This document shows positions 1 to 23,063 of a stretch of DNA of 26,901 nt, piece by piece. This DNA comes from a virus, in IMG/VR virus record IMGVR_UViG_3300047440_000155, positions 1 through 26,901 of that record; one strand, written 5' to 3'. A program made the translations under genes and the position numbers. Numbering within the stretch: the stretch's first letter is position 1; each line of letters begins with the position of its first letter. The notes below the pieces were generated by a model. The model did no database searches and was not told the DNA's origin. It worked only from the letters and a program-made list of their open reading frames with translations.

Positions 1-231
1 CGATGCACCGGTTTCACCGCAGATGTGTTCGTGGTTGCCGTGGAAGAGGCGCCAGTTCCCGCCCTTGACCTGACCCCAGCGGAGGTTGCCAAGCCCGCAG
101 GCTCGGCAAACTTTGGCTTTGATAGGTCGAGGGTGGTAACGGTAGGGGCCGGGCTCGTCGCCCGACCCTCCCGTCAGCCAGTCATCGAACTGTGCCCACG
201 CATCTGCTTCGTGGTCGAAGCAGTCAGACAT
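1..231 (-). CDS. Partial phage protein with zinc-ribbon-like Cys/His pattern
   Basis: The reading frame starts with ATG at 231 and stays open for 77 codons to the left edge of the window, so the C-terminus is missing. After an acidic N-terminus (MSDCFDHEADAWAQFDDW) comes a Cys-X2-Cys-Gly pair followed by HGNHEHICGE. That spacing suggests a small metal-binding fold, which is inference. It lies 2 nt downstream of the stop codon of the preceding leftward gene, so it is probably co-transcribed with it. No function can be assigned. The start is supported by tight spacing and an AAAAGG sequence about 14 nt upstream, which is a weak ribosome binding site. Confidence 0.6.
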   Translation of the reverse strand, partial: MSDCFDHEADAWAQFDDWLTGGSGDEPGPYRYHPRPIKAKVCRACGLGNLRWGQVKGGNWRLFHGNHEHICGETGAS

Positions 232-233
232 GA

Positions 234-575
234 TTAGCCAGCGGCCTTTTCGGGCCACTGCTCCTTGTGGTCGGGGCAATCACAGGTTGCCTCCATATCG
301 AACGCGCCGGCCTTCATCGAGAAGATGACGCTGTGGTGCTCGTCCACCACGATGGTGTATTCGGCGTCCTGCGTGCCCTTCTCGAACACGATGTCCTTGA
401 GGGTGTCCACAAGGCACTCGCGAACCAGCAGCAGCGGTTCGATCTTCTTTTCCATCTGACGCAGCAGCTCGACTGCCTTCATGATGGTAAAGTCCTTCGG
501 CGTGACTTCAACCAGCTTGACTTCACCGCGGCCCATGCTGATGCCAATTTCACGGACGATATCTTCGATGTTCAT
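234..575 (-). CDS. Hypothetical phage protein (113 aa) with C-terminal CDCPDH motif
   Basis: A 113-residue leftward gene with a strong ribosome binding site (AAAGGA, about 8 nt before ATG). The N-terminal two thirds look helical and charged (IVREIGISMGRGEVKLVEV, LLRQMEKKIEPLLLVRE). The middle looks like beta strands (AEYTIVVDEHHSVIFSM). Near the C-terminus is a short CDCPDHKEQW motif that could bind a metal. It sits 16 nt after the upstream gene and 2 nt before the next one, in the operon driven by the promoter near 1103. I do not recognise the family. Confidence 0.7.
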   Translation of the reverse strand: MNIEDIVREIGISMGRGEVKLVEVTPKDFTIMKAVELLRQMEKKIEPLLLVRECLVDTLKDIVFEKGTQDAEYTIVVDEHHSVIFSMKAGAFDMEATCDCPDHKEQWPEKAAG

Positions 576-591
576 GATTTTCCTTTGGTGT

Positions 592-1062
592 TTACTTGAC
601 CCTGCGTGGCTTCACAATTTCCAGCGTCGGCGCCCCGTCGCTGGACGTAATCATTTGACGCAGCACCGTGCCAACCGTCTGGTTGAGTTGCTCGTCCTTC
701 ACGATCTCGTTGTACTTGCCTTCGGCGAGGCTGTAGGACACGCGCAGGAAGTCGTCGAGGGCCACGTTCATGGAGGCCAGCCCTTCGCGCACCTGTGGGA
801 ACAGCTCTTTGTCAACCGTGTAGTTGATCTTGCCCGTGCCTTTCAGCAACCAGCCGTTCATGAGCGGGTAGTTGTTCACCCCGATCTTGTAGCTGGGCCA
901 GGCTTTCTTGAAGACGGCTTTGCGTGCCATCATTTCAAGGGACTTGAGCTTACCGAGTTCGACTTCCAGCTGCGACCACAACAGTAGGCCGGCGGTCATA
1001 TCGAATTCGGGGTCTTGGAAGAAAGCTTCCGTTGCTTCAACGTCAAACTGAGACTGATTCAT
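592..1062 (-). CDS. Hypothetical phage protein (156 aa), DUF7173-like
   Basis: First gene of the leftmost leftward unit. A candidate promoter lies at 1103-1145 and an AGGTGA sequence precedes the ATG. The central part (LEVELGKLKSLEMMARKAVFKKAW followed by GVNNYPLMNGWLLKGTGKINYTVD) resembles a widespread family of phage early proteins. That family has a helical hairpin followed by a small beta sheet around a G-W-x-L-K-G motif. I recall it as DUF7173-like, but this is from memory and unverified. The C-terminus is basic (KPRRVK). No enzymatic residues are evident; a role in early takeover or in replication accessory functions is only suggested by position. Confidence 0.75.
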   Translation of the reverse strand: MNQSQFDVEATEAFFQDPEFDMTAGLLLWSQLEVELGKLKSLEMMARKAVFKKAWPSYKIGVNNYPLMNGWLLKGTGKINYTVDKELFPQVREGLASMNVALDDFLRVSYSLAEGKYNEIVKDEQLNQTVGTVLRQMITSSDGAPTLEIVKPRRVK

Positions 1063-1102
1063 TGCTGTTCACCTATTCAAACGTTCACGGGTTGGAAGCC
1101 CT

Positions 1103-1145
1103 ATAGTACCATACTAAGGGCCACCGCCAAATGATTTATTGTAAC
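1103..1145 (-). promoter_or_regulatory. Leftward promoter region with element shared with 7311-7355
   Basis: On the minus strand a -10-like TACTAT (1108-1103), inside GGTACTATAG, lies about 35 nt upstream of the ATG of the 156-aa gene. Upstream is GTTACAATAAATCATT (1145-1130). That element recurs with one mismatch (GTTACAATAAAGCATT, 7355-7340) upstream of the orphan leftward gene at 7010-7297, again 21-23 nt before a GGTACAATAG box. Sequence conservation between two otherwise unrelated gaps supports a regulatory role. The -35 match is poor, so an activator site or a phage-specific promoter is possible. Confidence 0.55.
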
Positions 1146-1151
1146 TTTTAG

Positions 1152-1406
1152 CTATGGGCACTCTGTATGGATGTGTCGGATGAACGACATGCCACAGAGC
1201 TTACAGTTAGTAGGCTCACCGCATTCACCATCGTAAGCCCATTCGTGCTTGCAAGCACCAGCAGGATAGTGAGGCGCAACGTGGATAGTCACATCTTCAC
1301 CACCTAGTAGATCGAAAGCCCACTTTGCTCCATCCACAAAGACTTCGGGATCTCGATTACTGCGGGCACGTTGCCGTGCCAGCTTCTCAAAATCTGCGTC
1401 GGTCAC
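1152..1406 (-). CDS. Small zinc-ribbon-like phage protein (84 aa)
   Basis: Starts with GTG at 1406. The start overlaps the TGA of the upstream membrane-protein gene in a GTGA arrangement, which is typical of translational coupling and decides the start. The N-terminus is helical and basic (FEKLARQRARSNRDPEVFVDGAKWAFDLL). The C-terminal third has ACKHEW, GECGEPTNCKLCG and HIHTEC, that is Cys-X-His, Cys, Cys-X2-Cys and His/Cys groups that probably form a zinc site. Many phages encode such short zinc proteins; function is unknown. It is the last gene of the long leftward operon before a new promoter region. Confidence 0.65.
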   Translation of the reverse strand: MTDADFEKLARQRARSNRDPEVFVDGAKWAFDLLGGEDVTIHVAPHYPAGACKHEWAYDGECGEPTNCKLCGMSFIRHIHTECP

Positions 1407-1549
1407 TTCGGCTTGGCGTCCTTCAACGCCGCCTCGAGTTTGTCAGCGATCCAACGGATCCATTGGGGGATGCCACCGAACCACGCGCCCACTTGAACGC
1501 CACTCAGGAAGACGACGCAGAAGAGGATGAAGAGGAGGAAGTCGAGCAT
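1403..1549 (-). CDS. Small single-pass membrane protein (48 aa)
   Basis: A short frame starting at ATG 1549 with GGAG about 6 nt before it. It encodes a hydrophobic stretch right at the N-terminus (MLDFLLFILFCVVFLSGVQV) followed by a short amphipathic, basic tail ending KDAKPK. It overlaps the downstream gene by GTGA and lies over the Ser-rich 3' end of the upstream gene in another frame. The membrane segment, ribosome binding site and stop/start overlap support a real gene. Possible roles include membrane-targeted takeover or lysis modulation, but nothing in the sequence decides. Confidence 0.6.
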   Translation of the reverse strand: MLDFLLFILFCVVFLSGVQVGAWFGGIPQWIRWIADKLEAALKDAKPK

Positions 1550-1746
1550 GGGGAGCTCCAAAGTTGAATACGATTGTCGAGGCAGTTACGGTACCACCGC
1601 ATAGCCAGTAGCTGGTCCAGCATTGCAGCTTGTTCCAGATCGGGTAGAGTGAGGAACGTAGATGTCAGCACGAACGACTCGAGCTTCGTGATCTTGTCTT
1701 GAAGATCGCGTCGTTCGTGCGACACACGCTCTTGATAGTTATTCAT
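1504..1746 (-). CDS. Phage protein resembling the crAss001_48-related family
   Basis: Begins MNNYQERVSHERRDLQDKI and continues as a short helical hairpin containing KLESFV, LPDLEQAAMLDQL and MRWYRNCLDNRI. This matches the layout I know for the small crAss001_48-related family found in many phages: basic N-terminal helix, Phe in the turn, acidic E/Q-rich helix and a terminal Tyr-X3-Leu-X2-Arg-Ile. The C-terminal Ser-rich tail arises where the frame overlaps the 48-aa membrane gene. The start overlaps the upstream stop (ATGAATAA). An ATG two codons earlier is an alternative start. Biochemical role unknown. Confidence 0.7.
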   Translation of the reverse strand: MNNYQERVSHERRDLQDKITKLESFVLTSTFLTLPDLEQAAMLDQLLAMRWYRNCLDNRIQLWSSPCSTSSSSSSSASSS

Positions 1747-1858
1747 TTTCATCTGCATCGTCAGGATCTTTCCCGGTGCCCTCACAAGCTGGGCATGGTT
1801 GGGTAGTGTCTTCCGGGTCAACGCCGGAACCATCACAATGCGGGCAATCTGCTTGCAT
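1739..1858 (-). CDS. DnaJ-type zinc-finger micro-protein (39 aa)
   Basis: A 39-residue product with two CxxCxGxG-type repeats, CPHCDGSG and CPACEGTG, the signature of the DnaJ cysteine-rich zinc domain, followed by an acidic tail DPDDADENE. The start at 1858 is fixed by a near-perfect ribosome binding site (AAGGAGA, 7-8 nt upstream). The two CXXC pairs should bind a single zinc ion. It overlaps the next gene by 8 nt. Stand-alone zinc fingers of this kind are common in phages and may act as protein-protein adaptors; specific function is unknown. Confidence 0.75.
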   Translation of the reverse strand: MQADCPHCDGSGVDPEDTTQPCPACEGTGKDPDDADENE

Positions 1859-1903
1859 AAAGATTCTCCTTAGGTCACGTTGCTCCCTACGCACAACTTC
1901 GCA

Positions 1904-1959
1904 CGGGAACGCACAGCAATGCTGTGGCTCCCGGCGTTCTATTCTGCAATGGCAGAATA
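1904..1959. repeat. Two adjacent hairpins between the Acb2-like gene and the zinc-finger gene
   Basis: The first dyad has CACAGCA-A-TGCTGTG (1912-1926) with extra outer pairing CGGGA/TCCCG (1904-1908 and 1929-1933). The second is TATTCTGC-AATG-GCAGAATA (1940-1959). Neither is followed by a T-tract on either strand, so a standard terminator is not evident. They occupy the only gap over 100 bp in this leftward operon, immediately downstream of the sponge gene. They may act as an mRNA processing or stability element, or as a partial terminator. Confidence 0.6.
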
Positions 1960-1966
1960 TCATTGG

Positions 1967-2233
1967 TTAGAAGCTGTCGGGTTTCGCGATGCCGCGATTG
2001 ATTGCCATGAACCCTTGCTGGAGCTGGGTCTTGCCGATGGCAATCCACCGGGTATCCACAGTGCCGTCCAACATCAGGGCATCGACGGCAGCACCGACAT
2101 CGTTCGCCATCTTCTTGACGAGGTTCATCTTCTCGATTTCCACCTCGGTCAGCTTATGATAGCCAATGACCTCTGTGCCTTGTGAGACGCTCGGCGGGTG
2201 GCCGGTCATCTTGGCTTCGCCAGGTAAGCTCAT
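1967..2233 (-). CDS. acb2: Acb2/Tad1-like cyclic-nucleotide sponge (anti-CBASS/anti-Thoeris)
   Basis: This 88-residue protein ends with a block that closely fits the Acb2/Tad1 hairpin family: Ile-Gly-Tyr near residue 24, a Leu-Thr-x2-Glu-Ile-Glu-x-Met-Asn helix (28-37), and RWIAIGKTQLQQGFMAI (62-78), then RGIAKPDSF at the C-terminus. In the known family, Acb2 is a small hexameric protein that sequesters cyclic di- and trinucleotides made by CBASS cyclases. The related Tad1 sponges also bind Thoeris signals. The first roughly 20 residues are an unconserved tail. The start overlaps the upstream stop (ATGA). The family call rests on motif recognition; ligand specificity cannot be read from sequence. 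It sits in an early leftward operon, as expected for counter-defence. Confidence 0.8.
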   Translation of the reverse strand: MSLPGEAKMTGHPPSVSQGTEVIGYHKLTEVEIEKMNLVKKMANDVGAAVDALMLDGTVDTRWIAIGKTQLQQGFMAINRGIAKPDSF

Positions 2234-2439
2234 AGTCCCTCCGGAAGTCTGATGGTGGCGTAATACTTGATGTCGATTTCGTCCTCCTCGAAGTCTTCCG
2301 GCACATCGACCAACAGGTCATCACCGTCATAGACCGCGAAGAAGAGCGTGGCGTTCTTGTCGATGACAAGGAACTGCTCGTCAATGGGCAGGATGTCGAG
2401 GTCAGCGGGAATGGGAAGCCAGTGGAGTTTGGTTTTCAT
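2230..2439 (-). CDS. Small acidic phage protein (69 aa), DUF551-like layout
   Basis: A 69-residue acidic protein with N-terminal LHWLPIPADLDILPIDEQFLVID, a strand FFAVYDGDDLLVDVP and a C-terminal YYATIRLPEGL. The arrangement (Trp-x-Pro near the start, a Phe/Val-Leu-Val strand, then a closing L-P) resembles the small DUF551-type phage proteins. Similarity is weak and from memory. The start codon overlaps the 24-aa peptide stop (ATGA) and its own stop overlaps the next start, so it is tightly coupled on both sides. Function unknown. Confidence 0.7.
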   Translation of the reverse strand: MKTKLHWLPIPADLDILPIDEQFLVIDKNATLFFAVYDGDDLLVDVPEDFEEDEIDIKYYATIRLPEGL

Positions 2440-2510
2440 GAGTCAGTTTCCGAGAGTGTCCAAAGGAGGATGCCCACGGCAATGCCGATGACAATACCGA
2501 GGGCAATCAT
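2436..2510 (-). CDS. 24-aa transmembrane peptide
   Basis: A very short frame encoding MIALGIVIGIAVGILLW plus the tail TLSETDS, one complete hydrophobic helix with Gly spacing. It begins one base after the stop of the VWA gene (TAA-C-ATG) and its TGA overlaps the ATG of the next gene (ATGA). I see no strong ribosome binding site, so translation would depend on reinitiation. Precise abutment to both neighbours and the clean membrane helix argue for a real micro-gene, but the length makes this tentative. Confidence 0.45.
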   Translation of the reverse strand: MIALGIVIGIAVGILLWTLSETDS

Positions 2511-2511
2511 G

Positions 2512-3120
2512 TTAGCCGGCGATGGCGCCCATGATGAGGTCTTCAACGGTCAAGCCTTCTGCTTCGGCTTGCGTCTTGGCATCCACGATGTCGAACTTGC
2601 AACCCTTGAGGTCGTCGTCCAGCATCGTGAGGTACTTGGTGGCCGAAGGATCGTCGCCGACCTGGATGAACAGGATCGTGCACTCGTCGTCGGCGTTGAG
2701 CTTGTTCGACTTGGCGCGGATGACCGAGGCCACGCCCATCGGGTCGTCGGGGATGCCGTCCGTGAAGACGATGATGAAATCCTTCTTGTTGCTGACCTCG
2801 GACAGCTTGAAGACGGCTTGAAGAGCTTCCATCAACGGGGTCGAACCGCTTGGGCGATTGTCCGCGAACACCGATGCCACCTTGTCGGCGGTGGTGTTCT
2901 CGTAGCTGTTGATGGACGAGCCGCCGAACATGGTCACGGTGATGCCATCGGTGTCGATGGCAGAAACCTCGCGGGCGATCTGCGTGGCCGTTTCTTCCAC
3001 GGCTTGCCAGCGTGTGCGGGCGGAACCGGATTTGACGGGAGAACCCATCGAACCCGACTTGTCGATGACGATGTAGAAATCGTACTCGGTGAGGGCGGCG
3101 CGTTGTGCTTCGAGACTCAT
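2512..3120 (-). CDS. von Willebrand factor A (VWA) domain protein
   Basis: A 202-residue single-domain VWA protein. The metal-ion-dependent adhesion site is intact: DKSGS (Asp20, Ser22, Ser24), Thr94 in SGSTPL, and Asp121 in FTDG after a hydrophobic strand. The rest alternates strands and helices as expected of the Rossmann-like VWA fold and ends with the hydrophobic GAIAG. Start ATG at 3120 has AAGGAA about 7 nt upstream; longer upstream frames overlap the preceding gene. VWA domains mediate Mg-dependent protein binding. Phage versions exist, often of unknown role, and here it lies one gene cluster upstream of the cyclic-nucleotide sponge. No signal peptide, so probably cytoplasmic. Confidence 0.85.
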   Translation of the reverse strand: MSLEAQRAALTEYDFYIVIDKSGSMGSPVKSGSARTRWQAVEETATQIAREVSAIDTDGITVTMFGGSSINSYENTTADKVASVFADNRPSGSTPLMEALQAVFKLSEVSNKKDFIIVFTDGIPDDPMGVASVIRAKSNKLNADDECTILFIQVGDDPSATKYLTMLDDDLKGCKFDIVDAKTQAEAEGLTVEDLIMGAIAG

Positions 3121-3121
3121 T

Positions 3122-3286
3122 TTAGTTTCCTTGGTTGCCAGCATTGAGAGAAGGCTGCTGGGCGATGCCTTTAAGAGTTTCCTTGAGGTGGAGGACAGCA
3201 AGGTCGGCTGTTTCCTTAGCATGTGCGTTCGTGCCGAGGCGAATGGCTACGAGATACACTTGCTGCCAGAAGTCGATGTGAGACAT
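3122..3286 (-). CDS. Small phage protein (54 aa) with DFWQQVY motif
   Basis: From ATG 3286 the frame reads MSHIDFWQQVYLVAIRLG, then a helical segment ETADLAVLHLKETLKGI, and stops one base before the VWA start. The FWQQVY-x2-AI-x-G beginning followed by a helix with Ala-Asp-x-Ala-Val resembles a recurrent family of small phage proteins of unknown role. Its 5' end overlaps the C-terminus of the upstream gene by 40 nt. The ribosome binding site is weak. Confidence 0.6.
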   Translation of the reverse strand: MSHIDFWQQVYLVAIRLGTNAHAKETADLAVLHLKETLKGIAQQPSLNAGNQGN

Positions 3287-3456
3287 GATTGGTCTAGTGG
3301 TGGTTGAAGTTTGTCGTGAACACAACGCAACGCATCCATAGCGTTGAGTATCTTGTACATGATGACTACCTGACGTTCCTCGTGTAAGCATAAACGCTCT
3401 GCTTCATCGAGTAAGTCCATAGCCATTCGTAGCTGTTCGAGGGGTGTGGTGGTCAT
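3247..3456 (-). CDS. First gene of leftward operon, unknown helical protein (69 aa)
   Basis: Encodes a mostly helical N-terminal half (PLEQLRMAMDLLDEAERL, VVIMYKILNAMDALRCVHDKL) and a polar tail. A consensus-like promoter (TTGACA-N16-CATAAT) ends 7 nt before the ATG, so the message would be leaderless if this start is right. No Shine-Dalgarno sequence is present. The 40-nt overlap with the next gene suggests either a non-conserved tail or coupled translation. Function unknown. The Met at codon 11 is an alternative start. Confidence 0.55.
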   Translation of the reverse strand: MTTTPLEQLRMAMDLLDEAERLCLHEERQVVIMYKILNAMDALRCVHDKLQPPLDQSCLTSTSGSKCIS

Positions 3457-3462
3457 ACCCTA

Positions 3463-3490
3463 ATTATGCCTGTACCTTTCGGCCTGTCAA
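3463..3490 (-). promoter_or_regulatory. Leftward sigma70-like promoter (PL-type)
   Basis: On the minus strand TTGACA (3490-3485) is followed after 16 bp by CATAAT (3468-3463). This is a strong sigma70-type match in the divergent gap. The predicted transcription start falls on or next to the ATG at 3456. It would drive the accessory operon that includes the VWA and Acb2-like genes. Confidence 0.7.
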
Positions 3491-3506
3491 TTGATCCTTT
3501 ACTTTA

Positions 3507-3541
3507 GTATTGTACCTCTTAACCGAATGGTGGTATAGTAC
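3507..3541 (+). promoter_or_regulatory. Rightward promoter with two GTATWGTAC repeats
   Basis: On the plus strand TTGTAC (3510-3515), an 18-bp spacer and TATAGT (3534-3539) form a candidate promoter for the replication block. The leader contains AGAGAG before ATG 3572. The -35 and -10 boxes lie within near-identical nonamers GTATTGTAC (3507-3515) and GTATAGTAC (3533-3541), spaced 26 bp, which could also be operator half-sites. The leftward promoter lies 17 bp away in the same 115-bp gap. Confidence 0.55.
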
Positions 3542-3571
3542 AGTTTTTCACACACCCAAAGAGAGATCAAA

Positions 3572-3814
3572 ATGACGGAAGAGCTGTTCGACCAACCAAG
3601 CGAGCTGATGCTGGCCGTGGTCAATCACCTGAAAACGAAACGAGATAAGGATCTGCTAGAAGTCTGGAAAGAGACTGGCGTTCCGTATTTCTGGTTGCGC
3701 AAACTGGCAGCTGGTCGTATCCAGAACCCCGGTGTGAACCGGACCCAGTTTCTGTATGAGTATTTCACGGGCCGCAAGCTCGAGCTTCCAGGATTGCAGC
3801 TGGAACTGAAGTGA
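3572..3814 (+). CDS. Small HTH-like regulator (80 aa)
   Basis: First gene of the rightward replication block. The core LLEVWKETGVPYFWLRKLAAGRIQNPGVNRTQFLYEYFTG matches the short phage regulator type: helix, the turn TGVPYFWL as recognition region, the conserved K-L-A-x-G, then N-P-x-V-N and L-Y-E-Y-x-T-G. Such proteins resemble a minimal Cro/XRE DNA-binding domain. It may therefore bind the GTATWGTAC sites in the divergent gap, which is inference. Its TGA overlaps the GTG start of the primase gene (GTGA). Confidence 0.75.
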   Translation: MTEELFDQPSELMLAVVNHLKTKRDKDLLEVWKETGVPYFWLRKLAAGRIQNPGVNRTQFLYEYFTGRKLELPGLQLELK

Positions 3815-6099
3815 CATATAGCAACATCCCTGAAGAGCTCACGCAACTTAATCAGTGGATGGTGACTACAGAAGGCTCAAAGAAGCCACTTAGTCCTAAT
3901 GATTTAAGAGGAACTGAATGGGGAGATCCGTCATGCTGGGGCACGTTCTCAGCTGCGGTCTCCGCTGTTCGTTTCGGTTACGCTGAGCATATTGGTCTGG
4001 TTCTCCGAAAAGAGAACGGCATTGTTGCTATTGATTTGGATAATAAGCCAAGCAATCCGGCAACATCCCAACAGCTAGAGTATCATTCGGACGTTCTGGC
4101 CGGCTTTGGACAGTCGTACACTGAAAGGTCAGTGAGTAACACAGAGGACAATCCCTGCTACCACATCTTTGTACGTGGTACGATTCCTCGCTCTGTTAAT
4201 AAAGAGCATATCGAACTACGATGCGATAACTTCATCGTGGTTACAGGCGATGTAGATGGTGATGACCCAAAGCCTATTCTCAACGGCCATGAGATCACAT
4301 CGAGGTTGGCTGGACTAGCGCGGTTCCTTGGAGCTGAAGATACAGCCCTTGCCATAGTAGACGATTCACCACGACGATTCAGCACGGACCACATCGTAGA
4401 GAAGATGTTAGAGTCCAAGGGTGCCGATTACTTGAAGGCACCGATTGGCAAGTCAGAGACCGATTACACCATATTTGCGTGGATATGGGAATCGTGGACT
4501 CAGAATCGTGTGCAGGCCCTCGAGGTGTTCGACTCGTTTCCGTACAGCCAGCGCAAGAAGTCAGATGGTACGCCGTTGACAGCGTATCACAAGAACCTAG
4601 CTCTGGAGAAGGCGATACAGCTGGTAGAGAGCAAGAAAGTGCCGGTGGATATCGCCATGCTGATGAAGCCCAAGATGCTGTCAGCCCCTGTGGAAACAAA
4701 GAAGAGTAACCCGATGGCGATTGAGAAGATGCCAGATGGGTGGTGCAAAGAGTTTGCTAGGTTCACATTGGCTAATTCCAAATCACCATTGGAAGAAGCA
4801 GCTGTGTTCGCATCGTTCTTGCCAGTGTGCGGCATCGGTGGTAGAGTGTTCAGTGCTTCGGGTACTGGACTTAACCAGATGTTCACGTTGCTAGCGTTGA
4901 CAGGTACGGGCAAGGATGAAGCCGTGAACGCGGCGCAGCGTGTGTTGACCCGTGTGGCTATGGCTGGTGAACTTGGAGCCGGGGTGGCGATACAGGCATT
5001 CGTAGCGGACGACTTTGCGAGTGCACAGGGTATTCATCGGGCGCTAGCGGCTCAGCCAGTTATGTTCGGATACAACAAAGAGTCGGGCATGTGGATGGAG
5101 AGGATGGCAAAGTCCAATCCAGACGAGCACATGTTGATGATTAACAGTGTCATGTTGGATATCTACAATCTGCACGATGCATATCTGAAGGGACGGAAGT
5201 ACGCGAAGAAGGATAACGATTTGGATGCAGTGTATTCACCTACACTATCCACGTTGTCAGTATCCACGCCTCGACAGTTCTACGATTACATGAGTATCAA
5301 GATGCTGGACACAGGTATCACAGGGAGAGAGCTTATCTTCGAGTGTGAAGATACACAAGCCAAGTCGAGGCCATACAGCTATGTGGCACCAGAACCTCCG
5401 TATTACGTGGTGGAGGCAGTTATCAGGTTGGCTGTCGAGGCGAGGAAGAATATAGCGGATGTGCAGTACAGGTCAAAGCCAGTGCTGGCTACATCGGACG
5501 GTGAGACGGCTATGAACTGGTGGGAGATTGAATATCTGCGGTTGCAGAACATGGACAACGGAGATATCCACAGGGCGATATGGAGCCGGGCAAACCTCAA
5601 AATGCGGAAGTTGGCTGCTACGTTGGCTGTGAGTTATGCAATGATGTTCGATGTAGGTGATGGAATGCGGGCACCTATTATTACGCTTGAACATGTGGAT
5701 TATGCGGTCGCGGTAGTTAACTACTGTTCGCAGCAGTTGCAAGATAAGCTGAACAGGCGTGGGATTGGGAATCTGTATATACAGCAAGAGCAGATATTCG
5801 ATGAGGCTGTGGATTGGTATTTCAGTCCAGAGGCGAATCTGTTCACCAATGTGCGGAATCCAGAGATTAGGGCGAAGATGTATAGGGCGAGGGAAGATGG
5901 TGTGATATTCAAGAGTGCCATTATGACACGATGCGCAGGTAATGGGGCATTCAGTGGATATGGGAGGAGTACGGCAAATGAGTTGGAACGCACGTTGAAA
6001 AGTAAACTCGGAAGCGGTCTGTATCAAAGTATCACAACGGACGAGGTTTACAAGAGATACGGAACTCGGGCAGAGGCGTTTGGCAGGGTAGATACATAG
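3811..6099 (+). CDS. PrimPol-type primase fused to DUF3987-like helicase domain
   Basis: A 762-residue protein. The N-terminal domain (about 1-175) looks like an archaeo-eukaryotic primase/PrimPol: KKPLSP, DPSCWGTFSAAV, IGLVL, the metal-binding IVAIDLDN (Asp75, Asp77), CYHIFVRG (His118) and ELRCDNFIVVTGD. A helical linker follows (about 200-275), similar to helix bundles in NrS-1-type primases. The C-terminal part has a P-loop-like LALTGTGKDE (about 361-370), with Asp replacing the usual Ser/Thr after Lys, as I recall for DUF3987-type proteins. The protein probably primes and unwinds phage DNA. GTG start overlaps the previous TGA, which fixes it. A large inverted repeat follows directly. Confidence 0.85.
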   Translation: MTYSNIPEELTQLNQWMVTTEGSKKPLSPNDLRGTEWGDPSCWGTFSAAVSAVRFGYAEHIGLVLRKENGIVAIDLDNKPSNPATSQQLEYHSDVLAGFGQSYTERSVSNTEDNPCYHIFVRGTIPRSVNKEHIELRCDNFIVVTGDVDGDDPKPILNGHEITSRLAGLARFLGAEDTALAIVDDSPRRFSTDHIVEKMLESKGADYLKAPIGKSETDYTIFAWIWESWTQNRVQALEVFDSFPYSQRKKSDGTPLTAYHKNLALEKAIQLVESKKVPVDIAMLMKPKMLSAPVETKKSNPMAIEKMPDGWCKEFARFTLANSKSPLEEAAVFASFLPVCGIGGRVFSASGTGLNQMFTLLALTGTGKDEAVNAAQRVLTRVAMAGELGAGVAIQAFVADDFASAQGIHRALAAQPVMFGYNKESGMWMERMAKSNPDEHMLMINSVMLDIYNLHDAYLKGRKYAKKDNDLDAVYSPTLSTLSVSTPRQFYDYMSIKMLDTGITGRELIFECEDTQAKSRPYSYVAPEPPYYVVEAVIRLAVEARKNIADVQYRSKPVLATSDGETAMNWWEIEYLRLQNMDNGDIHRAIWSRANLKMRKLAATLAVSYAMMFDVGDGMRAPIITLEHVDYAVAVVNYCSQQLQDKLNRRGIGNLYIQQEQIFDEAVDWYFSPEANLFTNVRNPEIRAKMYRAREDGVIFKSAIMTRCAGNGAFSGYGRSTANELERTLKSKLGSGLYQSITTDEVYKRYGTRAEAFGRVDT

Positions 6100-14250: not shown

Positions 14251-16182
14251 ATGACGGATCTCAGTATCAATGGTCCCGGATCACCCTCGCTTACGGTGCG
14301 ACCGAAGTCGCCTCAAGATAAGCAAGTCTTGCAGCTTAAACCAGCTGTCCAAGTCACAACCATTCAGCAGGCTCCACCCCAAGTCATTGAGACAGGAACA
14401 CCGGGCATTGGAGAGGCTCCCCTAGACGGCGAACAGTACGCACGGGAGAATGGTCAATGGGAGATCGTTGAGGGCATTCCCGGTCCCAAGGGTGATCCGG
14501 GTGATAAGGGCGACAAGGGCGACAAGGGTGATACAGGTGACACCGGTCCCGTTAGCTTTCCCGATGCTCCAATCGATACCAAAGTATATGGCCGCAAGGA
14601 TGCTGGTTGGTCTCGGTCTGTAGCCGTTGCTGGCGACACCATGACAGGTGCGTTGGCGATTCCTGCTGGCTCTGCAGCGGCTCCAAGTCTCTTCTTTGCT
14701 GGTAATCCAACCTACGGCTTCTATCAGCAAAGCGCCGGGCGGCGGAGTTACGCGGCTGGTGGCATCGAGGTTGAACGTTTGGGTGCTAACAATCCGGCAC
14801 TCACAAACATGATTTATGCGCCGCAAACGGTGGGCTCCTCGCAGTTCACGTTCAGGCGCGATGCTCCCGGCACACCCAACACCAATTTGCTTGTGCTGGT
14901 GAATGATAACGCCAGCAACTCCGTTTACGTCCAGAATCAAGGTGTCGGCACGACACCGGAAGGAACACTCAAACTCATTGCCGGATCGACGGTTGTTAAC
15001 TCAGCGGTCAACGGTGATATCGCCACGTTCACAGGCGCTACCAAAACAAGCAGCTTTGCAGGCCCGGTGATACTGGCCGCAGACCCAACCGTCCCGCTGC
15101 AAGCTGTTACCAAGCAGTATGTTGATGCACTCTTCAGTGTATCACCGACGTTGCGGAATCTGATTGACAACGGCAATTTCAACGTCTCACAAGAGCTTGG
15201 TAGCACTGCCATCGCTACCGGCTTTTTTGCGGATCGTTGGAATATCTTCAATCAAGGAACGCAACGACTCTCCTTCCAACGTGCTACTACAGCCCTTGTT
15301 GATACAGGAGCGGTTAATAAAGCGGTGCTAACAGTTACGGCGACAGGGGCGCCGGCAGCAGACGATCTTCATGGGTTCTATCAAACGATTGAGAACCTTA
15401 CGACTGCACAGCTGCTATACGGTGGAGCCAACGCCAAGACTACGGTACTTAGCTTTTTTGCTCGTTGCTCTGTAGCCGGCACCTATTCCTTCGCTCTTCG
15501 CAGCGCAAACGGAACTCCTAATCGTAGCTATGTCAGGACGTTTACTCTAGCAGCAAATGTAATCACTCGGCTTGTCTTCGTGATTCCTGGCGATACCGGT
15601 GGTACAACTTGGAGTCTTTTCTCCACCTCACCCAACAACCAGTCCGTTGGAGATTTGAATCTTTTCATTTTTCCGGGGATCGGCACTACGTATGCCTCAC
15701 CTACTCTTGGATCTTGGGTGACTGGCAACTATGTAGCTGCTCAGGCACAAACAAATTTCACAGCACAAGCCAATGGCTCGACATTTGAGGTTTGGAGTGT
15801 GCAACTCGAATTAGGAAGCGCAGCTACTGCATTCGAGACGCTGCCGTTTGATTACGAACTGAGAAGGGCACAACGCTTCTACCAACCTCTCATCAACATA
15901 AGTCCTACTCGGATAGCCGGCTTTTTCTCGTCATCCAATTTCTTCACTGTCGGAGTAGTGATGCCGGTGTCGATGCGGGCAGCTCCTGCCGTGGTCTTTT
16001 CTCAAGCTAATCATTTTGTGATTAACACAGTTGGCGGCCTCTACACACCTAACGGAATTAGCATCTCGGCGGCTTACAATGCTGCGGCGGTACTGGCACA
16101 GATTCCAGGATCAGGATCAGGGCCGGGAACTTTCGAGGCGAACAACGCCAACGCCAAGCTGTTTTTGGATGCTAGAATATGA
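14251..16182 (+). CDS. Tail fibre/host-recognition protein with collagen-like segment (fibre 1)
   Basis: A 643-residue protein. The N-terminal anchor module (about 1-70, ending GIGEAPLDGEQYARENGQWEIV) leads into Gly-X-Y collagen-like repeats (about 75-100, GPKGDPGDKGDKGDKGD). SFPDAPIDTKVYGRKDAGW, the fibre repeat GDTMTGAL and ATKQYVDAL (a trimer-forming fibre motif) follow. From about 303, LIDNGNFNVSQ to ADRWNIF starts a jelly-roll, probably carbohydrate-binding, C-terminal domain. It likely forms a trimeric receptor-binding fibre. The next gene shares the N-terminal modules, so the two are paralogues. The stop overlaps the next ATG (ATGA). Confidence 0.85.
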   Translation: MTDLSINGPGSPSLTVRPKSPQDKQVLQLKPAVQVTTIQQAPPQVIETGTPGIGEAPLDGEQYARENGQWEIVEGIPGPKGDPGDKGDKGDKGDTGDTGPVSFPDAPIDTKVYGRKDAGWSRSVAVAGDTMTGALAIPAGSAAAPSLFFAGNPTYGFYQQSAGRRSYAAGGIEVERLGANNPALTNMIYAPQTVGSSQFTFRRDAPGTPNTNLLVLVNDNASNSVYVQNQGVGTTPEGTLKLIAGSTVVNSAVNGDIATFTGATKTSSFAGPVILAADPTVPLQAVTKQYVDALFSVSPTLRNLIDNGNFNVSQELGSTAIATGFFADRWNIFNQGTQRLSFQRATTALVDTGAVNKAVLTVTATGAPAADDLHGFYQTIENLTTAQLLYGGANAKTTVLSFFARCSVAGTYSFALRSANGTPNRSYVRTFTLAANVITRLVFVIPGDTGGTTWSLFSTSPNNQSVGDLNLFIFPGIGTTYASPTLGSWVTGNYVAAQAQTNFTAQANGSTFEVWSVQLELGSAATAFETLPFDYELRRAQRFYQPLINISPTRIAGFFSSSNFFTVGVVMPVSMRAAPAVVFSQANHFVINTVGGLYTPNGISISAAYNAAAVLAQIPGSGSGPGTFEANNANAKLFLDARI

Positions 16183-18089
16183 GTTCCAAGATCACCATCT
16201 CGAAAGGTAAATCGCCTGCCTTGCTGCTCCAGGTTCAACCGGGGACGCAAGTTACCACAGTGCTCCAGAAGCCGCCGGCTGTGATAAACGATGGCAGCAC
16301 TGTGGGTATCGGCGAGGCACCGATGGACGGTGAGCAGTATGCTCGTGAGAACGCACAATGGGAAATCGTGCGTGGCACTCCGGGGCCGGAGGGTCCAGAG
16401 GGTCCGCAAGGTGAACCGGGCTCCTCTACCTCTGTCTTCAATTACAAGGTTGACACACACTCTACTGCTCCGAATGATCCCGGAACCGGGTTGATGAAGT
16501 ACAACACGGTGGATCAGACGCAGGCAACAAAGCTCTATTTTGACTGGCTGACGACAGACGGATTCAATCCAGTATTGCTGTTTCAGATCACGCATGTGGA
16601 CGATCAACTTGTCCTTCAAGACAAGGATTTGGCTGTCAACTATCAATTGTTCAAGCTTCTTGGCCCGGCAATCAACCATCCAGATTGGTTCGAGGTTCCC
16701 GTTGCTTTCGTAGAGGGAACAACTACTTTTGATTTCAAGCAAAACATCGTTGCACTCGTTCGCTCTGTAGGTCAGAAAGGTGATACAGGCCCGGTAGGCC
16801 CGCCTAGCTTCCCTGATGCTCCGGTTGACACAAAGATTTATGGACGTAAAGATGCCGCTTGGACGCAGGTGCCGTCTGCTACGGGCGCACCTGGCGTATG
16901 GAAGCTACAGGACGGTACGGTGCCTGCTCCTGGATTGGCTTGGGCAAGCGAAGCAACAATGGGATGGTATCGACCGGGTGCAGGTAGAGTAACGTTTGTG
17001 GCTGGTGGCGTGGAGATTGAACGCACAGATACGACTACCACGGAGACGTTCACGGAGCTCTTTCCGAAGGCTACAGGTGGCGCTTCATCCATAAGTCTTT
17101 ACTCTACGACTGCGGCAAATTACGCTAATTATCAAGGATTCGGTCTCTACATGGATCCTAACGGTGCGAACATATCCACGTTTGCGCAAGGTACAGGCGT
17201 AGTGCTTCCGATGGTGTGTGGCGCTTCGAGATTTATATTCAACAGCAGTATCGCAGTAGCTCCAGCAACTGGTGGATCTACAATCTTGTTGGACAAGCCT
17301 GCTTCTGGTCAAGAAGCAGCTATTTACGGACGAGTAGGAGCTGGCATAACTCGTTGGGGGATGTCGCTTGGAAATACAGCCGCAGAATCGGCTCCGGCGA
17401 ATGGTTCCGACTTCATGCTGTCGCGTTTTGATAATACTGGTGCTTTTTTAGCTAATCCAGTACACGTTAACCGAGCGACTGGCGCAGCCACACTTACTTG
17501 CACCTCTACTGGCACAGCAGCTAGCGACCGCAATCTAAGTCTTAATCAAGCATCAAGTGGCTGGGCTCAACTTGCATTCACTGCCGCAAGCGCCGTCAAG
17601 ACTCTTCGGATGGGTAGTGCTGGCAATCTTGAGATTGTCAACACAGCCAACAGTCTTGTGCTCCTTGATTTGAAAGATTCTGGTGCTTTTGTCTTACCAG
17701 CTAATCCAGCTTTTATTGCTTCTGGAGCAAGTACCGCTGTAGGTGATTTGACATGGGTGACAGCTAATGTAAATATCGGTGGAAATTTCAATCCCGGTAA
17801 CGGAAGATTTACAGCTCCCGTAACAGGCACCTATCTTTTTTCGTACCATCAATTGATGCCGAATGCTCCTGCCGGTGAATTCCGTATCGGCCTTTATTTG
17901 AACGGTTTCGGATACTATGGGAGCAGAGTTATCTTTAATAAGGCAGCTGGTCAATGGCAATCAATACAAATTACTGCTCACGTGCGTATGAGTGCCAACG
18001 ATTACCTAGTTGTGCGTTACGAGAGCGGTCCGGCGGACCTCTACACGGATGGTGCGTACATTCAATTTGATGGTAATCTAGTGGGGTAA
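16179..18089 (+). CDS. Tail fibre/host-recognition protein with C1q-like tip (fibre 2)
   Basis: A 636-residue paralogue of the preceding fibre. It keeps GIGEAPMDGEQYARENAQWEIV and has two collagen-like pieces (about 65-82 and 198-206) separated by a domain absent from fibre 1 (VFNYKVDTHSTAPNDPGTG to FKQNIVAL). SFPDAPVDTKIYGRKDAAW and a beta-rich shaft follow. The C-terminal about 100 residues (NFNPGNGRFTAPVTGTYLFSY, RIGLYLNG, SANDYLVVRYES) look like a C1q/TNF-type trimeric head. It probably recognises a different receptor from fibre 1, or serves as the distal tip. Confidence 0.85.
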   Translation: MSSKITISKGKSPALLLQVQPGTQVTTVLQKPPAVINDGSTVGIGEAPMDGEQYARENAQWEIVRGTPGPEGPEGPQGEPGSSTSVFNYKVDTHSTAPNDPGTGLMKYNTVDQTQATKLYFDWLTTDGFNPVLLFQITHVDDQLVLQDKDLAVNYQLFKLLGPAINHPDWFEVPVAFVEGTTTFDFKQNIVALVRSVGQKGDTGPVGPPSFPDAPVDTKIYGRKDAAWTQVPSATGAPGVWKLQDGTVPAPGLAWASEATMGWYRPGAGRVTFVAGGVEIERTDTTTTETFTELFPKATGGASSISLYSTTAANYANYQGFGLYMDPNGANISTFAQGTGVVLPMVCGASRFIFNSSIAVAPATGGSTILLDKPASGQEAAIYGRVGAGITRWGMSLGNTAAESAPANGSDFMLSRFDNTGAFLANPVHVNRATGAATLTCTSTGTAASDRNLSLNQASSGWAQLAFTAASAVKTLRMGSAGNLEIVNTANSLVLLDLKDSGAFVLPANPAFIASGASTAVGDLTWVTANVNIGGNFNPGNGRFTAPVTGTYLFSYHQLMPNAPAGEFRIGLYLNGFGYYGSRVIFNKAAGQWQSIQITAHVRMSANDYLVVRYESGPADLYTDGAYIQFDGNLVG

Positions 18090-19198: not shown

Positions 19199-19489
19199 AT
19201 GAAGCCACAGTATCTTACGGTAGCTGGTACACCGGTCGCCGTTCCACTCGACAACAACGTTGTAGAGTTCGATGTCACGATCCGTTGTGCAGCTGGTCAG
19301 ACGGTAGATGCTACTCTGGACGACCCCAAGGATCCTATCTTCGCACCGGGTGCACCTGCTGCGCAGGTCTGGTTCCCGTTGACCGCATCGCCGCTGGGTG
19401 CCACGATCTTCACGCTCACCAATCCTGTGCGTCAGGTCCGCATTACGGGGGCCGGTCAGACGACGATTTTGCAACAAGGCGGAATCTAA
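19199..19489 (+). CDS. Small beta-type structural-like protein (96 aa)
   Basis: The product consists of short strands: QYLTVAGTPVAVPL, VVEFDVTIRCAAGQTVDAT, AQVWFPLTASPLGATIF, QVRITGAGQTTILQQGGI. This is typical of small phage virion beta-sandwich proteins such as tail or head decoration elements. No specific family is recognised. It starts 3 nt after the preceding stop and ends 1 nt before the large downstream gene. Confidence 0.6.
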   Translation: MKPQYLTVAGTPVAVPLDNNVVEFDVTIRCAAGQTVDATLDDPKDPIFAPGAPAAQVWFPLTASPLGATIFTLTNPVRQVRITGAGQTTILQQGGI

Positions 19490-19490
19490 C

Positions 19491-22400
19491 ATGTCAGCTC
19501 CTATGGGTCGTTGCGCTTGTGGTGGTGCTCTCCACATGGCAGAAGGCGGCTCAGTGGATGACGAGGACTTGACGAAGCCAAGCTTTCGTAAGCCACTGAT
19601 CTCAAAGCGCCGGGAAGATCGTCAAGATCGCAAGGGTGCGTCAGAAGCTCCCTTGTCCTTGGCCCGCGGCATTGTAGCAGGATCGTTGGGAATGCCTGGC
19701 GATATCGAGACTTTGGTACGATGGGCGGCCAACAAAGCTGGTGCAAATGTTGACGATCAAAGCCTGTTCAGAACCTCCGAGGGGTTCAACCAGTCACTAC
19801 CACTAAGGGCACCCGAGAGCCGCGGCCGTGGGGCATGGGAAGGGGCCGGGAATATGGTAGCACCGGGGCCACTGACCGCGGCATTGAAGGGCGCCCGAAA
19901 CGTCGCCCCGGCACTCGAAAGAATCGCAGAACATCTTTCAGCACCGGGTGAAGCACTCATCCCCGGTCGAACAGGTGCTCAAGCACGCCAAACAGGTGCC
20001 GTGCGCCTTGCTGGTGGAAATTGGGCGCCCGGGCAAGGGCCAAAGGAGCTTGTCAGAGAGTTTGATGAAGCTCAACAAGCCACTTTGCCGGAAGACGTAT
20101 CCAACTTGTTTAACAGCAAGATTTCCAAGTACATTCAGCAGGATCTCGGCACACCGACTGATCCGCTGCGCACAAAAGAGTTGACAGGTCCGAATACCGC
20201 CAAATACATCTACAAGATGCAACCGGACGGAACACGCAAACTCATGCGTAAGGAGCAAATTGCGGAGCCCGTGGACACGAGTGGTCAGCTGCACATGACG
20301 CAAAAAGATCTCAACCGAATGAATAATCAGTTCGGTGAGACATCACCACGCGACAAAGATTACATCGAGATGGATTACGCCGGGAATACGCGGCGTGGCT
20401 TTGGACCGAAGTTCAAGCAATCTTATTCACAGGGTGATGAAAGCCGTGATCTCTTCCGCAAGGCCGATAAGGTTGTGCCGGAAGCACGCACTGGATGGGA
20501 AAATCTGTCTGACGCGCACGTCAACATGATGACGCCGGAAGATTTGAAGTATTACGCTAGAGGTCCGCTCCCGAAGTGGGCGAATGCTCTTCCCGACGAC
20601 ACGCAACTGGCTCGTCTGAGTGGCGACGCCATGGAGAACCTCGGTTTTGGCAACATCCGCCAGTACATGAAAGAGGCAACAGCGCCACCGCGCCCTGCGG
20701 ATTACGTGGGGCCGTTGTCGCCAGAGCAGAAGGCCATTCAAGATCTGAAGCTCAACATTCAGGGCAATCCGGAGAAAGGCATCAGTCCTGCTGATCGCAT
20801 GAAGCAAATGTCGATCAGCGACTTGGTGGATAACACCGGTCAGATGGCGAACAGAGCAGCTCGTGAACGGTTGCTTGGTGATCTGCGTTCCACAGAAGCA
20901 CGCAAGGTCTATGAGAACGACCAGCACTACATCTCCGAACTCAAGCCCGAAGGATTGAAGCACGAAACTGAAGCACTCGGGAACTGCGTCGGAGATAGCT
21001 GCGACTATGAGAACGCTATTCGCGATGGAAACTCCCGGATTTATAGCTTGCGTGACAAAAAGACCGGCGAGCCCGGTGTTACGATTGAAGCACAGCGGGA
21101 AGTGCCTGAAATCAACGATCTACCAGAAGCCGAGCAAGCTCGTCTTTGGCATGAGGCAGAGGTCGAGGCCGGTCGGACAGATGCTGACCCCAAAGAGGTT
21201 TATTGGAGCAAGTATCAGAAGGCAATGGATGAAATCCAGCCGAAGCCTGTCTGGAACATTTCTCAAGTGCGCGGTGTTGACCAAAATGCGGCGGTGGCTC
21301 CTCACTACGCAGAATCTGTCATTGATTTCCTGAACAAAGGTGATCCGGAGGGCGGTGCCGCCAAGTGGGCGTATGTCGAGCCAGAGGAGTTCACGAATCA
21401 TGGACTCCAGAATGTAGGCTCTTACAAGGGCCAGTTCATGCATCGTCCGATGGCTGAGGATGCTGCCAAGAAGTTTGGCAAGCTTGACATGGCGACGGCC
21501 TACGGAGGTGGAGTCTACGATTGGGACAACTACCTCAAGAGCATGATGACCGACCCGGTGCTGATCAAGAAGCACGATACACCGGAAAAGTTGCAAGCTG
21601 CAATCTACAATGATTTCAGCAGAATGCTTAAAGATGACAGGAACAGTGCCATCAAACCCATTCTCGAGGATATCCCAGCTGGTTGGGAAGATCAATGGAA
21701 AGCTGATTACAAAGCCAAGTTGGATGCACAGAAGGCGGCTGCTTCTGCTGATGCACAGAATACGTTGCCGCTTATCGAAGAGCCAGGTGAGCCTGGCGGC
21801 ATGTTCCGCGGCGGCCGAGTTGGTTACGCACAAGGTGGTTCGATTTCAGCTGGCAATACTGTCGGCCTCGGAACATTCGGACAAGGTGATCAACAGGTCT
21901 CGTCGGGCGGTGGCGGTGGCATGGGCAATCCGTTCGGCGGAGGCTACGGTCTGACCGCTGGAACACCGCCACCCGCTCCGGCGTCAGCTGCTGCCCCTGT
22001 GGTAAGCACACCGAATGGTCCGATGACCATGCGCAACGGTCAGAATGGATGGACGTTTGAGAACGGAAATCTAGCTCAAGGTGATGTTGGCAACGCACCT
22101 ACGTATGATGATGTGTTCTCGACATTCCTCGGCCAAACCTACTTCACTCCAGGCAAGTACGATCCTGCACTGGCAATGACTCTGAATGCTGGTAATCAGG
22201 GCATGTTGCGTCAAGGACTGGATGCGTTCATCGGTCACGGCACGGATGATCCGAACGGTACCGATCCACTGTCACAGGCCGCAGCAGCTGGCTACCGGTC
22301 AGATGACCTCAAGAATCTGGCTCGTAATTTCGGTCTGAACGCAGACGCGACTGACCTCGAGACACAGTTGCGTGATCGCACGAAAGATTACTACGGCATC

Positions 22401-23060
22401 GGCGGTATGAGTGCCGGCTGGAATGGTTCGCCTGATGCACGTATCGGAAACATGACGTTGTATCAGCGTAAGGACGGCAAGCTGGTTCCGATTCAAACCA
22501 ACTCCGGACATCTGCCGGAACAGGGTAGCTTTATCGAAGAGCACCCCGGCGTGTTGGCTCCGTTGGCTGTGGTCGGGGGTGGACTGGCAGCGGCCTATTT
22601 TGGTGCTGGTGCGGCGGGTGCTGGTGCCGGTGCAGCAGAAGGCGCCGGCGGTGCTGGTGCCGCCAGTGGTTTGGGAAGCTACTGGAGTTCTATGCCAGCT
22701 TGGGCTCAAGGTGCTGCTCAAGGTGCAGCTTCTGGTGCTCTTTCGTCTGGTGTCCAAGGGCAAAATCCTATCAAAGGCGCAGCCATGGGCGCACTCACTG
22801 GTGGTGTCGGTGGTGCCGCAGGTAGTGCCTTGGCGGATGCTGGAGCCGGGAGTACCTTGTCGAGTCTCGGTGGCAAAGCCGCCAGCATGGGCACGGGGAT
22901 GGCCGCACGTAGCATTTTGTCGGGAGATCCACAACAACAGCAAGCACGGGCACCGCTCTACAGTCAGCCGGCACAGTCGCAGATTCCCACAGCGGCACCG
23001 GCTCCAGCACCGGCCAATACTGGCATCCTCAACTCGAAATACTTTACTCAGGCTGGATAA
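19491..23060 (+). CDS. Large virion-associated protein (1189 aa), probable internal/ejected protein
   Basis: ATG 19491 directly follows the previous stop; a longer in-frame extension overlaps that gene and is rejected. The N-terminus has CACGGALHMAEGGSV and ARGIVAGSLGMPGDIE. Around residue 497 is EALGNCVGDSC with RIYSLRDKKTGEPGVTIEA, a block resembling the PcfJ-type motif known from conjugation-associated and phage proteins. At about 777-823 is RGGRVGYAQGGSI and a Gly-rich linker. At about 1017-1103 an Ala/Gly-rich hydrophobic region (LAPLAVVGGGLAAAYFGAG) could insert in membrane. The tail is Gln/Pro/Ala-rich. It probably lies inside the capsid or tail and is ejected; this is inferred from composition and position before the portal. 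Confidence 0.7.
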   Translation: MSAPMGRCACGGALHMAEGGSVDDEDLTKPSFRKPLISKRREDRQDRKGASEAPLSLARGIVAGSLGMPGDIETLVRWAANKAGANVDDQSLFRTSEGFNQSLPLRAPESRGRGAWEGAGNMVAPGPLTAALKGARNVAPALERIAEHLSAPGEALIPGRTGAQARQTGAVRLAGGNWAPGQGPKELVREFDEAQQATLPEDVSNLFNSKISKYIQQDLGTPTDPLRTKELTGPNTAKYIYKMQPDGTRKLMRKEQIAEPVDTSGQLHMTQKDLNRMNNQFGETSPRDKDYIEMDYAGNTRRGFGPKFKQSYSQGDESRDLFRKADKVVPEARTGWENLSDAHVNMMTPEDLKYYARGPLPKWANALPDDTQLARLSGDAMENLGFGNIRQYMKEATAPPRPADYVGPLSPEQKAIQDLKLNIQGNPEKGISPADRMKQMSISDLVDNTGQMANRAARERLLGDLRSTEARKVYENDQHYISELKPEGLKHETEALGNCVGDSCDYENAIRDGNSRIYSLRDKKTGEPGVTIEAQREVPEINDLPEAEQARLWHEAEVEAGRTDADPKEVYWSKYQKAMDEIQPKPVWNISQVRGVDQNAAVAPHYAESVIDFLNKGDPEGGAAKWAYVEPEEFTNHGLQNVGSYKGQFMHRPMAEDAAKKFGKLDMATAYGGGVYDWDNYLKSMMTDPVLIKKHDTPEKLQAAIYNDFSRMLKDDRNSAIKPILEDIPAGWEDQWKADYKAKLDAQKAAASADAQNTLPLIEEPGEPGGMFRGGRVGYAQGGSISAGNTVGLGTFGQGDQQVSSGGGGGMGNPFGGGYGLTAGTPPPAPASAAAPVVSTPNGPMTMRNGQNGWTFENGNLAQGDVGNAPTYDDVFSTFLGQTYFTPGKYDPALAMTLNAGNQGMLRQGLDAFIGHGTDDPNGTDPLSQAAAAGYRSDDLKNLARNFGLNADATDLETQLRDRTKDYYGIGGMSAGWNGSPDARIGNMTLYQRKDGKLVPIQTNSGHLPEQGSFIEEHPGVLAPLAVVGGGLAAAYFGAGAAGAGAGAAEGAGGAGAASGLGSYWSSMPAWAQGAAQGAASGALSSGVQGQNPIKGAAMGALTGGVGGAAGSALADAGAGSTLSSLGGKAASMGTGMAARSILSGDPQQQQARAPLYSQPAQSQIPTAAPAPAPANTGILNSKYFTQAG

Positions 23061-23063
23061 CTC

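Follow-up and report, generated by a model that had tools for sequence, protein, structure and literature searches.

The locus analysed here raises the question of whether a short leftward open reading frame of an uncultivated tailed phage encodes a sponge of the Acb2 family, whose members are phage proteins that soak up the cyclic-nucleotide alarm signals of bacterial anti-phage defence, and whether that sponge is also of the Tad1 (Thoeris anti-defence 1) type, as the label "Acb2/Tad1-type" of the initial annotation would have it. We analysed the frame within its window, a 26,901-nucleotide stretch of viral DNA, by comparison of sequences, predicted structure and gene neighbourhoods. The features discussed are collected in Table 1.

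Table 1 Features of the acb2 region, with positions in the window and the evidence for each
Feature	Position	Strand	Evidence
acb2, 88-aa Acb2-family protein	1967..2233	-	PF24729 match, PDB profile matches, fold match to 8h2x, 8h2j, 7uq2
N-terminal tail of Acb2, residues 1-24 before Y25	2162..2233	-	comparison with 66 homologues; pLDDT
Ribosome-binding site AGACTTCCGGAGGGACT directly 5' of acb2 ATG	2234..2250	-	sequence
Upstream ORF, 69 aa, without family match (Pfam, PHROGs)	2230..2439	-	ATGA overlap with acb2 start
Possible single-pass membrane peptide, 24 aa	2436..2510	-	translation only
VWA-domain protein, 202 aa, MIDAS motif DKSGSMGS	2512..3120	-	PF13519 E 4.8e-7
ORF, 69 aa, first gene after promoter-like site	3247..3456	-	ORF list; Pfam search
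Leftward promoter-like site TTGACA-16-CATAAT	3490-3463	-	11/12 consensus matches
DUF7173 protein, same leftward run	592..1062	-	PF23791 E 8e-21; also near acb2 in three other viral contigs
Phage transcriptional repressor, divergent	3572..3814	+	phrog_9425 E 1.3e-8
Phage primase, divergent	3811..6099	+	phrog_3022 E 3e-74

The open reading frame has the signals of a translated gene

The frame begins with an ATG preceded by CCGGAGGGACT, in which the ribosome-binding site contains GGAGG, and that ATG overlaps the end of the preceding gene in the sequence ATGA. Judged by these two signals acb2 is a real gene and, because both are found at this ATG, the full-length form with its N-terminal tail is the likely product. 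All of the motifs that had been quoted for the protein were present in the 88-residue translation: the C-terminal block (RWIAIGKTQLQQGFM, residues 62-76), IGY (residues 23-25) and the L-T-x-x-E-I-E-x-M-N helix, which reads LTEVEIEKMN (residues 28-37).

The protein belongs to the Acb2 family

The hidden Markov model search proposed as a check on the family assignment gave a significant match. PF24729 (Acb2_Tad1_hairpin) was the single Pfam-A family matched (E 1.2e-16), and its score of 61.1 bits is over twice the cut-off of 27. In PHROGs the match was to phrog_717, which carries no name, and searches of PADLOC and NCBIfam gave no match for the protein. When the 88-residue sequence alone was searched against all PDB sequences only Acb2 p26 was matched (E 2e-9). 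A profile of 42 sequences matched PaP2 p26 (1e-29), 8ixz (1e-28) and T4 Vs.4 (5e-9), and the remaining PDB matches all had E >= 0.46, the level of chance.

Among phages, 92 records of the collection searched were matched at E <= 0.01. The closest named relatives come from jumbo phages CBB and GAP32; these homologues are 50% identical over 72 residues, start MDNQH without an extra tail and are annotated only as hypothetical proteins. Pseudomonas phages PaMx33 and PaP2, the sources of studied Acb2 proteins, were found at 5e-7 by tblastn, with about 34% identity. A scan of viral contigs with the 88-residue protein itself returned zero relatives, its short peptide patterns probably being too divergent; the same scan run with the closest named relative gave 98 relatives, and 80 of these were retained.

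The Acb2 proteins of PaP2 and PaMx33 (p26/gp24; PDB 8H2J, 8H2X, 8IXZ) have the same two-helix hairpin. The blocks GY...MN..K and RWxAIGKTxxQxGxMAxxRxIAxPDSF are common to both sides of this comparison, as is the PDSF end, whereas the inter-helix loop is about 19 residues shorter and the N-terminal tail 14 residues longer in the protein studied here. Acb2 of Escherichia phage T4 (Vs.4; PDB 7UQ2) shares the fold but is remote in sequence.

The hairpin occurs in other settings. In Caulobacter phage Jess A (L007:2264-2830) it forms the C-terminus of a 188-residue protein, whose roughly 100 extra N-terminal residues matched no Pfam family. In Rhizobium phage RHph_X2_26 (L006:3465-4270) acb2 lies directly 3' of a gene annotated as a TIR domain, which Pfam called DUF1937/DUF4406 instead, and in a Thiohalocapsa phage (L009) acb2 follows two genes after a nucleoside 2-deoxyribosyltransferase.

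The predicted fold is an Acb2 hairpin without the Tad1 beta domain

AlphaFold2, given homologues from the viral contigs, predicted a single-chain helical hairpin with no other domain, the helices spanning residues 30-55 and 61-83 with pLDDT 95-98. Foldseek against the PDB placed Acb2 or Vs.4 structures, 8h2x, 8h2j and 7uq2 included, at ranks 1-9 with probability 1.00, and the next match had E 1.4. The helical hairpin and the likeness to Acb2 structures that had been anticipated were thus both recovered. Whole-chain TM-scores for the Acb2 and Vs.4 matches were modest (0.51-0.65), which we attribute to the N-terminal tail and the shorter inter-helix turn. By analogy with characterised members, the chain would be expected to assemble into a hexamer.

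A sponge that resembled Tad1 could bind the Thoeris signal gcADPR as well, and the name of PF24729 covers Acb2 together with the C-terminal hairpin of Tad1. However, Tad1 has four N-terminal beta strands ahead of its two helices (PMC12043709), and here only 29 residues precede helix 1, with no strand predicted by AlphaFold2; nor was any Tad1 structure among the PDB profile matches or the Foldseek matches. Sharing of the Pfam hairpin name notwithstanding, the N-terminal beta-sheet domain of Tad1 is absent, and for that reason the protein is Acb2-like rather than Tad1-like, a sponge that also takes up gcADPR being extremely unlikely. Of the double label, the Acb2 half stands on the family match and the hairpin fold; the Tad1 half, and with it the binding of Thoeris signals, is unsupported. 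We consider it very probable that the protein is an Acb2-family sponge that, like the characterised members, would form hexamers and bind ligand.

Residues of the putative ligand pocket are conserved

In the T4 Vs.4 hexamer cGAMP is contacted by Y8, F82, H11, K23 and R79, and the Y8A substitution lowers binding more than fivefold (PMC10097602). Three of these contacts, Y8, K23 and R79, align to Y25, K40 and R80 of the protein studied here. Conservation at these positions is nearly complete among 41 homologues (Y25 and K40 in 41/41; R80 in 40/41), and R62 is kept in 40/41. The other two differ: F82 corresponds to A83 and H11 to L28, and neither residue is kept in PaMx33 Acb2, which is reported to counter CBASS (PMC12043709). 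Since PaMx33 Acb2 and 41/41 homologues have Ala at the F82 position too, A83 does not predict loss of function.

Other positions depart from the family. Residue 26 is His where 40/41 homologues have Arg, Asn79 replaces a usually hydrophobic residue and was seen in none of the 41, and SQGTE stands in place of the usual NQH at the start. As H26 and N79 deviate from the homologue set, ligand preference could differ. The protein might even be a divergent member, such as a decayed sponge, in which ligand binding has been lost or altered and which now has a different role: acb2 of PaMx41 has an early stop and that of T2 a probable binding-site mutation (PMC12657218), and the changes to H26 and N79 fall at two near-fixed positions. 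Against decay, every family-invariant residue is retained, and the reading frame is uninterrupted and preceded by a strong ribosome-binding site; we regard such a loss as very unlikely. The reading we prefer is a functional sponge, one that in hexameric form probably captures the cyclic di- and trinucleotides of CBASS. Panoptes is a decoy system that senses Acb2 activity. That the longer tail without NQH, together with H26 and N79, would alter the ligand range or let the sponge evade decoys such as Panoptes is a conjecture to which we give very little weight.

Tail length varies across the family

Before the conserved tyrosine of the GY motif the protein has 24 residues, whereas most of 66 homologues have 10 (starting MDNQH), and residues 1-16 of the tail are predicted to be disordered (pLDDT < 50). 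The tail, described in the initial annotation as an unusual one of 20 residues, is indeed about 14 residues longer than is typical, but it is not unusual, other members having tails as long or longer. A tail unique to this protein was rejected: several of the 66 homologues have 14 residues before the tyrosine, and two (L087 and L088) have 35. Tail length therefore varies across the Acb2 family, and on sequence the tail here is unremarkable.

The gene lies in a putative phage early region

The placement of acb2 is phage-like. It is about the fifth gene of a leftward run that follows the promoter-like site, and the repressor and primase genes diverge from that run; the primase shares only about 25% identity with its closest phage matches. 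In two other viral contigs (L039 and L053) primase and repressor likewise point in one direction and DUF7173 and acb2 in the opposite one, and a third (L089) has such a divergent layout with no repressor detected. The "strong leftward promoter" claimed for the run exists as a putative site defined by its match to consensus, but the count of such sites in positions 1-4000 (1 observed against 1.7 +/- 1.5 in shuffled sequence) is not above that of shuffles.

A VWA gene does lie near acb2, as had been noted. Its product is a stand-alone VWA protein of the phage early region with an intact MIDAS motif; its three closest relatives in viral contigs are 51-57% identical, and distant ones, of which some carry a CobT-like annotation, occur in Streptomyces phages. 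PF24729 was not found in the records of the three closest relatives, some of which may be fragments, and no VWA match was present at the other acb2 loci compared. On these two results a functional link between the VWA protein and acb2 was rejected.

Other genes of the window were noted in passing. The 24-residue hydrophobic peptide upstream (MIALGIVIGIAVGILLWTLSETDS) overlaps the next start by ATGA and is too short for usual annotation. Directly 3' of acb2, positions 1739-1963 (-) encode a small protein with two CxxCxGxG-type motifs, which resembles the DnaJ zinc domain or anti-TRAP in weak matches. Two very long open reading frames of 1220 and 956 residues at 19398-25934 (+) matched neither Pfam nor PHROGs; they lie after genes for a tail-fibre-like protein (14251-16182) and a C1q-domain protein (16179-18089).

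Proposed action and significance

By analogy with characterised Acb2 proteins, we propose that the phage would make the sponge early in infection. Its two long antiparallel helices would form the hairpin, and six copies would be expected to assemble into a hexamer whose inter-protomer pockets, lined by Y25, K40 and R80, would bind the cyclic dinucleotides of CBASS, 3',3'-cGAMP for example; cyclic trinucleotides, for instance cA3, may occupy a second site. With the signal held rather than degraded, the CBASS effectors (phospholipase, nuclease and others) would stay off.

The protein is a new but ordinary Acb2 of an already known and well-studied family. With it an uncultivated phage gains one well-supported Acb2, and the understanding of Acb2 is left unchanged. 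The recurrence of acb2 in the repressor-primase-DUF7173 early region of several contigs could help to place other counter-defence genes.
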